A stretch of DNA of 64,000 nucleotides, from the NCBI RefSeq assembly GCF_021266465.1, contig NZ_CP089848.1:1178001-1242000 (forward strand). Reading direction: 5' to 3'. A program made the translations under genes and the position numbers. Position 1 is the first letter of the stretch. Each line of letters starts with the position of its first letter. This stretch comes from Paralcaligenes sp. KSB-10. GTDB lineage: Bacteria; Pseudomonadota; Gammaproteobacteria; Burkholderiales; Burkholderiaceae_B. The notes below the pieces were generated by a model. The model was not told where the DNA came from. It ran no database searches and saw nothing but the letters and a program-made list of their open reading frames with translations. This document shows positions 1 through 48,397 of this stretch, one piece after another.

Positions 1-27
1 GGCATGCTCGCCTTACTCTGAGCTAGA

Positions 28-54
28 GTATTTTTGGTTTAGGTGTTTACGGCG
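28..54 (+). repeat. Left terminal inverted repeat of block I
   Basis: The sequence begins GTATTTTTGG and ends TGTTTACGGCG. Its reverse complement recurs at 876-902 with two mismatches. Similar ends occur near 30715 and 47659 (left) and 11116, 31217 and 48477 (right), with a looser consensus TTAGCGCATTTTTGGTTC followed by GTGTTTACGGC. Confidence 0.85.
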
Positions 55-130
55 CTGAAGACGTTTCAGTCGATTTTTTTGAACCGTTCGTTCAGGTTTG
101 AGTTGCTACTTTGGGTGGTTAATTCTATAA

Positions 131-359
131 AGACGCCGCAGGGTGGGCGGTGCTGTGTAGTCCGGCACGTCCAGCGGTCGGCTAGCTGCGCTAGCCGACT
201 GCCCGGGTCTGCCTCGTCCAGGCGGGCGTCGGGCCAACTCGCAGTGCCTCGCGCGCGAGGCACTGCTCAGACAGGGCCCGCCGAAGGCCCCCGCCTTCCC
301 TTCGTCAGCACCCGGCGCTGGACTACCGCCGGACTACACAGCACCGCCCACCCTGCGGC
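131..359 (+). repeat. Type A long hairpin, copy I
   Basis: The outer arms (CGCCGCAGGGTGGGCGG onward, and the complementary GCACCGCCCACCCTGCGG at the far end) pair over about 30 bp. Inside are a perfect 10-bp stem-loop (GTCGGCTAGC, loop TGC, GCTAGCCGAC) and a CAGTGCCTCGC/GCGAGGCACTG stem. Other copies are at 10715-10948 (inverted) and 47791-48018. Block III retains only a collapsed remnant near 30826-30850. The inner core matches the core of the type B hairpin when read in reverse. Confidence 0.85.
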
Positions 360-559
360 TTGCGTTGAGGCAATGCAGCGAGGTATACGTTGGGGAAGCC
401 CCGTTGAGCCAATCACAGGCTACGTTGAGGCATCGGTCGCTTAGTAAATTCAGGGTTTGGCATATCGTGGTGTAGTGGTCACTCGATAGAGGCATGGGTG
501 CGGGCACGTTACCTGTTCTATGGATACAGGCCCATTAACGGTAGATGCAAGCACATTGA

Positions 560-643
560 TTCCAGGCATGCCGTCTCCACAAGACATCTCTCCTTCCAGG
601 CACACCGTTCCAGGTGCACCATTCCAGGCAATCGTTCCAGGCA
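560..643 (+). repeat. Five TTCCAGG(C/T)(A/G) direct repeats
   Basis: The 9-mer TTCCAGGCA (one variant TTCCAGGTG) starts at 560, 594, 608, 622 and 635. The last four are spaced 13-14 bp apart. The array sits between the A and B hairpins and is reduced to a single CATTCCACGCATGCC in blocks III and IV. Confidence 0.7.
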
Positions 644-656
644 TGCCCTAACGTGA

Positions 657-851
657 GCCGTCTATCGGGGCTAGGGTCAGGACCGGCGTAAGGCGTGCGC
701 CGGATTTAGCTCGCCAAGGCGGGGGCCTTCGGCGGGCGCTGTCTGAGCCCGGCCTCGCGAGGCCGGGCGAGTTCGCCCGACGCCCGCCTTGGCGTGCTAA
801 ATCCGGATCAAGCACGCCGTGCCGGGCCTGACCCTAGCCCCGATAGACGGC
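657..851 (+). repeat. Type B long hairpin, copy I
   Basis: The outer 24-bp arms starting GCCGTCTATCGGGG are perfect inverted repeats (657-680 and 828-851). They are followed by an inner 18-bp stem with one mismatch (TTAGCTCGCCAAGGCGGG against CCCGCCTTGGCGTGCTAA) and an apical palindrome CCCGGCCTCGCGAGGCCGGG. Other copies are at 30955-31160 and 48196-48397. The arms vary between copies but pairing is mostly kept. Confidence 0.88.
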
Positions 852-913
852 GTCTTCAAATACCAAAACATCGAACGCCGTAAACACCCGAACCAAAAAT
901 ACCCCAGTCACGC

Positions 914-942
914 AAAAAGCAAAACAGCGGCCGAAGCCGCTG
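914..942 (-). terminator. Rho-independent terminator downstream of the GntR gene
   Basis: On the minus strand, CAGCGGC-TTCG-GCCGCTG forms a 7-bp GC stem with a tight tetraloop. It is followed by TTTTGCTTTTT. It lies 28 bp past the stop codon of the regulator gene and outside the repeat block. Confidence 0.8.
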
Positions 943-969
943 TGTGCGAGCCCGCACAACAAGAGGCAA

Positions 970-1719
970 TCAGGTCGCTGCGGGTTCGCGGGTCATGCGT
1001 TCGTAGGCCCGGCGCAGGCGCTCGCGGCTATTGGTAAGATGGGTGCGCATGGCCGCGCGAGCCGCTTCAGGGTCGTGCCGGTCGATGGCGGCGTAGATGT
1101 CTTCGTGCTCTTGATTCACGCGCTGCAAATAGGTGTGCTCATCGTTCAAGGCCAGATTCGCCGTATCGATACGGGTACGAGGGATCAGGTTCTTGCCCAA
1201 TTGGCCCAGGATGTCCTGGAAGTACCGATTACCGGTCGCATTGGCGATTTTCAGGTGAAACGCCAGGTCGGCCGAAACGGCGCTGCCATCGGCCTGGTCG
1301 ATATGCCCTTCGAAATCATCGAGCAAGGAACGCAAGGCTCGTACATCGTCATCGGTGCGGCGCATTGCCGCCAATGCCGCGGACTCTGTTTCGAGGCTGA
1401 TGCGCAATTCCAGAACCGCCATGGTGTCGAGCATGGTGAAAATATTGTCGGCCGCCAGCCGGACGGTATGGCCGACGCTGGACTCCATGACAAAGGTGCC
1501 GATGCCATGGCGTGTTTCGACCAGGCCGGCCGCCTGCAGGCGGGAAATGGCTTCACGCACGACCGTGCGGCTGACCGCCTGTTCGCGCATGATGGCCGAT
1601 TCAGTGGGCAACTTGGCACCGGGCCTGAAACGGCCGTTCTGGATGTGCTCGGACAACGCAGCCACGACATCGTCGGTCAGGCTGCGCGAACGCTTTTTTT
1701 CTGGGCCGCTGGAAATCAT
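970..1719 (-). CDS. GntR family regulator, FadR/FCD subfamily (probable galactarate regulator)
   Basis: A 249-residue protein with an N-terminal winged helix (about residues 12-80, including TESAIMREQAVSRTVVREAI and the wing sequence GIGTFVM). A C-terminal all-helical FCD ligand domain follows (about 95-235). Length and order are typical of FadR-subfamily repressors that sense sugar acids or carboxylates. It lies downstream of garD on the same strand with a 194-bp gap, so it probably controls the garD/ABC genes and may be partly co-transcribed. The ligand is inferred only from context: galactarate, glucarate or a breakdown product. Confidence 0.85.
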   Translation of the reverse strand: MISSGPEKKRSRSLTDDVVAALSEHIQNGRFRPGAKLPTESAIMREQAVSRTVVREAISRLQAAGLVETRHGIGTFVMESSVGHTVRLAADNIFTMLDTMAVLELRISLETESAALAAMRRTDDDVRALRSLLDDFEGHIDQADGSAVSADLAFHLKIANATGNRYFQDILGQLGKNLIPRTRIDTANLALNDEHTYLQRVNQEHEDIYAAIDRHDPEAARAAMRTHLTNSRERLRRAYERMTREPAAT

Positions 1720-10639: not shown

Positions 10640-11116
10640 TGTCATCGTGACGCAACACCCTGCGTCTCGCCATGGGGCCGCCACGCTTCTCTCGCTGCAT
10701 TGCCTCAACGCAAGCCGCAGGGTGGGCGGTGCTGTGTAGTCCGGCGGTAGTCCAGCGCCGGGTGCTGACGAAGGGAAGGCGGGGGCTTTCGGCGGGCCCT
10801 GTTTGAGCAGTGCCTCGCACGCGAGGCACTGCGAGTTGGCCCGACGCCCGCCTGGACGAGGCAGACCCGGGCAGTCGGGGTGCGCAGCACCACGACCGCT
10901 GGACGTGCCGGACTACACAGCACCGCCCACCCTGCGGCGTCTTTATAGAAATACGATCGCGCCTACACAGACTACACAGCAACGCACAGCCCAAAGTCAT
11001 CAATCAAGCCAATACAGGCAATCCAAAGTCATCGCCCCAGCCGGTATAGGCAGCTCAAAACGAAAGTCACTGAAACACGCTCAGCGCCGTAAACACTGGA
11101 ACCGAAAATGCGCTAA
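10640..11116. repeat. Composite hairpin element, block II (half element, inverted)
   Basis: It carries one hairpin A in reverse orientation (10715-10948) and one terminal end (11080-11116, GCGCCGTAAACACTGG...AAAATGCGCTAA). Hairpin B and the opposite end are missing. The left boundary is uncertain, near 10640. The outermost CTAA at 11113-11116 contains the stop codon of the adjacent P-type ATPase gene. Confidence 0.75.
10715..10948 (-). repeat. Type A long hairpin, copy II
   Basis: Inverted relative to copy I. The outer arms are near identical to copy I (CCGCAGGGTGGGCGG...CCGCCCACCCTGCGG). The internal tip differs: read in the copy I direction it is GTCGTGGTGC, loop TGC, GCACCCCGAC, pairing with one mismatch. 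Confidence 0.85.
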
Positions 11117-30718: not shown

Positions 30719-31217
30719 GCGCATTTTTGGTTCGGATGTTTACTGCGCTGAACGTGGTTCCGTGACTGTCGTTTTGAACCGTTCAGGTTTGGGCTTATTA
30801 CTTTGTACTTTGGACGGTAGTTCTATTAAGACGCCGCAGGGTGGGCTTGCATAGAGAGAGAGGCATTGGGGTCATGCACCGAGAGAAACGTTGAGATCAT
30901 GCATCGAGGTATACGTTGGGCCGGCAAGCTCATTCCACGCATGCCATTACGCGAGCCGTCTATCGGGGCTTGGGGTCAGGACCGGCGTAAGGCGTGCGCC
31001 GGATTTAGCTCGGCAAGGCGGGGGTAGTCGTCGGGCGCTGTCTGAACGGAGCCTCGCGCAGTGTGCGAGGCGCAGTGAGTTCGCCCGACGCCCGCCTTGA
31101 CGAGCTAAATCCGGATGAAGCACGCCGTGCCGGGCCTGACCCCAAGCTCCGATAGACGGCGTCTTCAAATACCAAACCGTCAAATGCCGTAAACAACTCA
31201 AACCAAAAACTACGCTA
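30715..31217. repeat. Composite hairpin element, block III (hairpin A collapsed)
   Basis: It fills the space between the convergent sirB2 and sulfatase genes. The left end GCGCATTTTTGGTTCGG (30719 on) and the right end (31186-31217) are inverted relatives. Hairpin B is complete (30955-31160). Of hairpin A only the leading AAGACGCCGCAGGGTGGGC (30829-30847) remains, joined directly to the TTGC that normally follows the far arm. This looks like deletion of the hairpin. Confidence 0.82.
30955..31160 (+). repeat. Type B long hairpin, copy III
   Basis: The outer arms are GGCTTGGGGTCAG/CTGACCCCAAGC, where copy I has GGCTAGGGTCAG/CTGACCCTAGCC, so both sides changed together. The inner stem has one mismatch. 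The apical palindrome is GCCTCGCGCA...TGCGAGGC. Confidence 0.85.
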
Positions 31218-47790: not shown

Positions 47791-48018
47791 GACGCCGCAG
47801 GGTGGGCGGTGCTGTGCAGTCCGGCACGTCCAGCGGTCGAGGCGCTTGCGCGCCCCGACTGCCCGGGTCTGCCTCGTCCAGGCGGGCGTCGGGCCAACTC
47901 GCAGTGCCTCGCCCGCGAGGCACTGCTCAGACAGGGCCCGCCGAAAGCCCCCGCCTTCCCTTCGTCAGCACCCGGCGCTGGACTACCGCCGGACTACACA
48001 GCACCGCCCACCCTGCGG
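47791..48018 (+). repeat. Type A long hairpin, copy IV
   Basis: The outer arms are nearly identical to copy I. The internal tip is GTCGAGGCGC, loop TTGC, GCGCCCCGAC, a different sequence at the same place that pairs with one mismatch. Confidence 0.85.
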
Positions 48019-48195
48019 CTCGCGTTGAGGAAATGCATAGAGGGATACGTTGGAGCGGCGGGCGCTTAGTACATCGAGTCGTCAATCGAGGTATACGCGG
48101 CCACTTGATGGAGATGGGCACGTTCACTATCCTTTAGGTGCAACCCCATGAACTATGGATGCGAGCGGGTTCATTCCACGCATGCCATGACGCGA

Positions 48196-48397
48196 GCCGT
48201 CTATCGGGGCTTGGGGCCAGGACCGGCGTAAGGCGTGCGCCGGATTTAGCGCGGCAAGGCGGGGGAAGTCGTCGGGCGCTGTCTGAGTATCGACCCGCGC
48301 CGCGGGGCGATGCGAGTTCGCCCGACGCCCGCCTTGCCGCGCTAAATCCGGATCAAGCACGCCGTGCCGGACCTGGCCCCAAGCCCCGATAGACGGC
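48196..48397 (+). repeat. Type B long hairpin, copy IV
   Basis: The arms GGCTTGGGGCCAG/CTGGCCCCAAGCC pair perfectly. The inner 18-bp stem TTAGCGCGGCAAGGCGGG/CCCGCCTTGCCGCGCTAA is also perfect. The apical stem is ATCGACCCGC...GCGGGGCGAT. Confidence 0.87.

Follow-up and report, generated by a model that had tools for sequence, protein, structure and literature searches.

Correia or NEMIS elements (CREE) of Neisseria and other TA-ended MITEs resemble the element described here in being interspersed, non-coding and intergenic, and in having terminal inverted repeats (TIRs) with TA at their ends. In the passages cited, TA-ended MITEs are described as smaller than about 200 bp and mostly A+T-rich (PMC2229807), and NEMIS-type transcripts with long stem-loops as proposed substrates of RNase III (PMC2229807, PMC2649163). 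REP, BIME and REPIN sequences and their RAYTs offer a second comparison, since they too are palindromic and intergenic, form inverted pairs and are tied to the insertion of certain ISs; according to excerpts of PMC3733652, a REP is an imperfect palindrome of 20–40 nt with a GTAG or CGTC tag, the latter being the tag of one REP superfamily. From excerpts of PMC3110155, the BRE of Bordetella (with the sRNA bprJ) is a repeat of about 90 bp, rich in GC, often tandem and for the most part intergenic, that occurs in Alcaligenaceae and in other Betaproteobacteria; one of its copies yields an 80-nt RNA. The structured RNAs of Rfam, in turn, have a conserved fold, fixed internal loops and covarying helices, as the hairpins described below do.

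The present element departs from all of these. Unlike Correia/NEMIS elements, it measures 503–978 bp (59 copies with well-scored ends and without an IS insert) and carries two separate GC-rich hairpins, A and B, of about 200 nt (166–227 nt), whose internal loops are conserved; in other genera the hairpin is also found as a single unit. Unlike REP, it combines hairpins of that size with the absence of a Y1 transposase from four high-copy genomes, and REPIN membership was rejected on both grounds. The base of hairpin B carries CGTC on its 3′ side in 78 of 83 copies in this genome and in only 13 of 46 hairpins of relatives. BRE, as far as the excerpts of its description go, is reported from other families too, whereas in the genomes sampled the matches to our two covariance models (R1, built from the B hairpins of this genome, and R2, built from relatives only) are confined to one family; the element is set apart from BRE by that description rather than by sequence comparison. 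A known Rfam RNA was likewise rejected, as nothing in Rfam 15 overlapped the hairpins, whether the window was searched at gathering scores or 12 loci with an E-value limit of 5. A literature search over open-licence PMC papers found no description of the element. We read it as a variant of the MITE/REPIN kind: MITE-like, but carrying large, structured, covarying and strand-biased RNA-like hairpins.

Architecture and copies of the element

The window, that is, the whole stretch of 64,000 nt analysed here, covers positions 1178001–1242000 of a single-contig genome of 4.45 Mb. Copy I of the element runs from the left TIR through hairpin A, a mosaic spacer and hairpin B to the right TIR, and parts of three further copies lie in the window:

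23–907 (+): whole element, copy I (885 bp); ends taken from the terminal repeats, which are inverted, aligned over 88 loci
23–54 (+): left TIR, CTAG plus ..ATTTTTGGTTYRRGTGTTTACGGCG, 88% complementary to 876–907
135–359 (−): hairpin A, copy I, reading outward to the left TIR; minus strand richer in wobble-type pairs
360–656 (no strand): mosaic spacer between the hairpins, with tandem 14-bp units at 594–643 in copy I
657–851 (+): hairpin B, copy I, reading outward to the right TIR; plus strand richer in wobble-type pairs
876–907 (+): right TIR; copy I ends in CCAG, where CTAR is usual
10693–10953 (−): copy II, hairpin A block, without a full hairpin B (L115)
30955–31160 (+): copy III, hairpin B, its hairpin A truncated (L041)
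47794–48019 (+): copy IV, hairpin A (L042)
48196–48397 (+): copy IV, hairpin B (L042)

The outer arms of hairpin B form an inverted repeat (657–687/821–851) that is 97% complementary, and the apical part of hairpin A is related, in inverted orientation, to that of hairpin B. As RNA, the region 1–960 is predicted to fold much better than do 20 shuffles of it (z = −14.7). Just beyond the element, a terminator-like stem-loop with a T-rich tail (924–943) would serve the right-hand ORF (970–1719, minus strand).

A 15-base anchor taken from the right base of hairpin B has 74 exact occurrences genome-wide, and 12 more sites match it with a single mismatch, so that there are about 86 copies. We fetched 88 loci (the 86 anchor sites and two with hairpin A only), among which a full hairpin B is present in 83, a full hairpin A in 79 and both in 76; in the latter, the gap between the A and B blocks is 32–263 bp. 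The TIR pattern, with up to three mismatches, was found at 48 genomic places as against none for the reversed control, and the ends align; terminal inverted repeats are thus common to many copies, as in a MITE.

The spacers are mosaics of short segments that are combined differently from copy to copy, and in copy III a 25-bp unit stands about twice in tandem (30856–30908) before hairpin B. The apical stems come in several very different forms among copies, each self-complementary, and some of these forms are common to A and B.

Compensatory change in the hairpins

Bacterial interspersed palindromes are often called structured merely for being palindromes, and the ambiguity between selection and copying is common to palindromic repeats generally. 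A module that is high-copy in one genome and low-copy in other genera allows selection for pairing to be separated from copying between arms. A preliminary description of hairpin B had claimed, from copies I, III and IV, that changes in one arm are compensated on the other, and the wider comparison confirms this observation. For the outer arms of those three copies it holds at the places named, apart from one right-arm change in copy III, a single C-to-T substitution (AAGCTCCG) that leaves a G-U pair; by themselves, three copies are little proof of compensation. The same trend had been described for the inner and apical stems and is borne out in both: the inner stem has two versions, each matched on both sides, found in 66 and 17 of the 83 copies, and the apical stem has several such versions.

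For covariation within the genome, we used 40 of the 68 distinct hairpin B sequences, picked for diversity (model R1, alignment A1), and 36 of the 78 hairpin A sequences (alignment A2). In the 40 distinct B hairpins, 99.2% of cells are paired. Changes on both sides occur in nine of the 66 pairs, in 52 cells as compared to 15.2 in shuffles and 0–4 when the arms are slid; the number of further pair types, 21, shows no excess over the 20.3 found in shuffles (199 of 500 shuffles reach 21). We also confronted the alignments with a tree-based null in the spirit of R-scape, using a script of our own rather than R-scape itself and a FastTree tree, in which the number of changes per column is kept and the changes are placed at random on the branches. 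For hairpin B, five of the 12 doubly variable pairs were significant against this null, and at the level of all pairs none of 19,306 column pairs was. For hairpin A, 11 of 15 doubly variable pairs were significant, and so were 16 column pairs at the all-pairs level, only six of them within the structure; the columns of hairpin A therefore carry linkage that the tree-based null does not remove. The single-genome covariation signal for hairpin B is weak.

The comparison between genera is far more telling. Thirty of 268 genomes of the family, this one included, have a blast match to hairpin B. R1 matches all 18 relatives chosen among the genomes with such a match, 50 times in G225, 41 in G208, 30 in G209 and one to nine times in the others, some of the matches being of the A type; conversely, R2 matches this genome 71 times, which equals the number of candidates scored. 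Alignment A4 contains 41 matches from 12 relative genomes of six genera (36 of the 40 relative loci fetched were used); pairs were counted with a partial match kept and a duplicate merged (40 rows), and the test against the tree-based null was run with one partial match and one duplicate removed (39 rows). In A4, 96.4% of cells pair, as against 37–40% when slid, and 47 of the 66 pairs change on both sides (452 such cells as compared to 123 in shuffles). In the outer helix this is true of 30 of 31 pairs, often with three or four Watson-Crick types. Against the tree-based null, 32 of 45 doubly variable pairs were significant, and of the 22 column pairs (out of 16,290) significant at the all-pairs level, 19 lie within the structure. 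Across genera, the helices thus covary above phylogenetic background, as expected of a structured RNA, by our script rather than by R-scape itself; the alignment of this genome alone is marginal in this respect for hairpin B. The suggestion, made from the window alone, that pairing itself is kept is upheld by these data.

Being an alignment made with a covariance model, A4 leans toward the structure, which is why a check of the arms by model-free means matters. In 46 hairpins of relatives, comparison of the outer 24 nt at one end with those at the other shows Watson-Crick pairing at 1044 of 1105 aligned positions. The outer arms differ widely in sequence between genera, yet they remain complementary. 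The pairing of the hairpin is preserved by compensatory change, while the letters of the internal loops stay fixed.

Ends, neighbouring genes and distribution

The ends were analysed in the 63 of the 88 copies in which they were well scored, both neighbours being called in 61 of these. The left end reads CTAG in 25 copies, TTAG in 13, CTGG in nine and otherwise in 16; the right end, read outward, is CTAG in 22 and TTAG in 17. The pattern is a TA flanked by C or T on the outside and by G on the inside (YTAG/CTAR tetramers). Outside the end tetramers, two bases are shared in eight of the 63 copies (3.9 expected), three in two, five in one and eight in one, and no consistent duplication longer than TA was found across this set. 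The end tetramers would fit insertion into YTAR with duplication of the TA.

The copies of this genome sit between genes, many of them directly at a stop codon. By an ORF-based reading, for which no annotation was used, the neighbours are convergent in 38 of 61 copies, and a stop codon falls exactly within the terminal tetramer for 22 of 47 co-directed ORFs on the left and 11 of 52 on the right. YTAR is rare in GC-rich coding sequence except at stop codons; consequently, the choice of target together with selection against gene disruption can account for these positions.

As for a parent IS with matching TIRs, of the kind by which a MITE is recognised, the transposases sought, DDE_3 and DDE_Tnp_1, have no match in this genome, and an IS630-type or DDE_Tnp_1 parent resident here was rejected. 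The parent transposase may have been lost from this genome. DDE_Tnp_1 was found in four of nine genomes searched, including the high-copy G209 and G225. Y1_Tnp (PF01797) has no match in the four high-copy genomes (G000, which is this genome, G208, which is 82% complete, G209 and G225) and is present in two of 12 genomes searched, G232 and G002.

A degenerate DNA pattern for the core of the hairpin, written to exclude the commonest type of this genome, hit 68 stretches among 84,980 named species genomes, in a scan that may omit records of this genome. The carriers are Pollutimonas, Candidimonas, Paralcaligenes, Paenalcaligenes, a Pusillimonas and ‘Alcaligenaceae bacterium CGII-64’, all of them Alcaligenaceae in the NCBI taxonomy. 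With stricter filters, at which weak matches are lost, R1 was also run over 399 genomes of the order, and it hit this one and two more from its family. R2, run over 36 genomes, matched seven of 21 within the family (this genome included) and none of 15 outside it; three g16 genomes gave no more than one match each, and four g4 genomes gave none. Window 641–860 had no blastn match in phage and plasmid collections, and carriage by phage or plasmid was rejected on that ground.

In low-copy genomes, the hairpin is mostly solitary between ORFs. Reading 31 loci of relatives by eye, we found about 15 between convergent genes, five in sense, five in antisense and two between divergent genes, four not being called. 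Certain sites recur. A hairpin upstream of miaB is found in this genome (L070), G018 and G224, always on the same strand; another, between ruvB and recQ, is found in G020 and G232, which belong to one genus, and in G223 of another genus, where the strand is flipped. We judge sharing of sites by chance to be unlikely for genomes with three to six matches, but it may apply to copy L070 of this genome. Outward-facing pairs of hairpins also occur in genus g47 (G146, G152). Several genera thus have the module, either as a single hairpin or as an inverted pair facing outward; in this genome the pair sits between genes in a MITE-like element with TIRs.

In G018, two outward-facing hairpins of locus L182 (1623–1826 and 11493–11711) lie 9.7 kb apart. 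In G230 (L191), similar flanking genes stand directly beside one hairpin, one of them by 93.7% protein identity and the other by eye. This stretch of about 10 kb in G018 was considered as a full-length element and rejected, as no mobile-element gene was recognised by eye in its ORF list. In G201, a gene for an Rpn-like protein (recombination-promoting nuclease; L193:6281–7251) ends about 60 bp from a hairpin; it scores below curated cut-offs, is apparently split over two frames and was seen once.

The folded strand and competing readings

Gene conversion from arm to arm, by template switching in the palindrome, would match the arms and leave pairing without a function, and had been put forward as another possible cause of the matched changes. 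It would account for the very high Watson-Crick fraction of the outer arms and for how little the arms diverge between copies of one genome, but it is contradicted by a mismatch site within the outer stem, column pair 43/199: copying between arms should also match this site, which is complementary in 35 of 83 copies (32.7 expected if the two columns are independent, p = 0.40) and so varies freely, while the pairs flanking it are paired in 83 of 83. Nor does conversion agree with the one-sided TAA bulge and the G-T pair, both fixed in 83 of 83 copies, or with the internal loops, which are one-sided and largely fixed and have similar letters in other genera. Wobble pairs are strand-biased besides. 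In the outer helix of relatives we counted 24 distinct G-U events against five A-C events (p = 5e-4); among distinct column events in this genome, there are seven G-U and three A-C in hairpin B and six and three in hairpin A read on the minus strand, neither significant alone, and 13 and six when pooled (p = 0.17). In all three sets, the bias is toward the strand reading from the element's centre outward. A double-stranded cruciform or copying between arms should show no such bias, and RNA or single-stranded DNA should, which suggests that one strand folds. Conversion as the general cause was rejected on the free mismatch site and the fixed bulge, and we hold it to be very improbable. Both tests, on the mismatch site and on the wobble strand, can be reused on other palindromic repeats.

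One strand of the hairpin probably folds, as RNA or as single-stranded DNA, although the strand bias could in part be due to strand-biased mutation. The preliminary description had left a choice between RNA and extruded DNA; a single strand, RNA or DNA, is favoured, and a double-stranded cruciform is disfavoured by the wobble bias in relatives. The degree of constraint differs along the element. Among the copies of this genome, identity is 97–98% in the outer arms and 99.9% in one inner stretch of B, as compared to 66–73% for the TIRs, 73–74% for the adjoining tracts, and 81–82% for the side stem of hairpin A and the apical stem of hairpin B, which are more variable than the arms. While the rest of the element diverges, arms and inner stem are held constant, which could be due to selection or to conversion from copy to copy. 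At about 94%, the arms have a Watson-Crick fraction that seems higher than would be expected of an RNA helix; some homogenisation of the arms at the DNA level is possible.

The reading we prefer, with a probability of roughly 0.55, is that hairpins B and A are a strand-specific structured module of Alcaligenaceae that is spread in a MITE-like element and acts as folded RNA. Transposition into YTAR sites, with the TA duplicated, would have spread the element, by means of a transposase that is now gone or not recognised. The folded strand, more likely RNA than single-stranded DNA, would be transcribed by read-through from the mostly convergent neighbours, 3′ of the genes, where so stable a hairpin may serve as a barrier to RNases or as a processing substrate; such a location has been proposed for REP and NEMIS RNAs in passages of PMC3733652 and PMC2229807. 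The fixed internal loops hint at a bound protein partner. Against an RNA stand the lack of an orientation bias, the lack of a sigma-70-like promoter in window 1–1000 (promoter scan) and the terminator-like site that the right-hand neighbour has of its own (943–924). With five sense and five antisense cases at co-directed loci and the strand flip between ruvB and recQ, the module is a poor fit to a cis-acting mRNA element. If expressed, it would be a structured RNA family that Rfam 15 lacks, apparently spreading in a MITE-like vehicle, and adjoining housekeeping genes in some genomes (e.g., miaB, ruvB, recQ).

The strand-biased wobbles fit single-stranded DNA equally well, and the fold could act in that form, as a recognition structure for a one-strand transposase or recombinase during replication in the manner of REP and RAYT, the pair then being a giant REPIN. 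The high copy number of some genomes, the recurrence of outward-facing inverted pairs in genus g47 and the indifference to the orientation of neighbouring genes would all suit such a role. We regard it as possible but doubtful: Y1_Tnp is missing from all four high-copy genomes, the hairpin is several-fold larger than a REP, and Y1 transposition does not fit TIR-type ends with YTA/TAR; moreover, intergenic sites common to low-copy genomes of different genera suggest vertical retention. The position at gene ends could also mean that the hairpins terminate the transcription of convergent genes in both directions, and the convergent neighbours of most copies here and of about half the relative loci (the latter read by eye) point that way. 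The same positions are also explained by insertion into YTAR and survival outside genes, and the hairpins do not look like terminators. The longest run of T in the next 12 nt is three or fewer in 206 of 208 hairpins (83 of 83 B and 77 of 79 A hairpins of this genome, the other two having four, and 46 of 46 in relatives); a terminator scan, whose stem and loop limits are tight, lists neither hairpin, the right-hand gene has its separate site, and the conserved internal loops would be left unexplained. We therefore think a terminator function unlikely. It is a long shot that the hairpins are the nucleic-acid half of a mobile ribonucleoprotein system, in which two structured RNAs would read outward, each continuing past the end of the element into flanking DNA and so having a piece of the insertion site as its 3′ end; a protein of the host or of the element might use these RNAs to find or to protect target sites at gene ends.

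Hairpin A is itself a site of insertion. Four copies of this genome outside the window (L054, L063, L067 and L080) carry an insert of about 1.44 kb at one identical position of hairpin A, and the frame in the insert of L063 encodes an RNA-guided transposase of the IS110 family (NCBIfam NF033542). Given the shared position and the identity of this frame, hairpin A appears to be a programmed target of the IS110-family insert.
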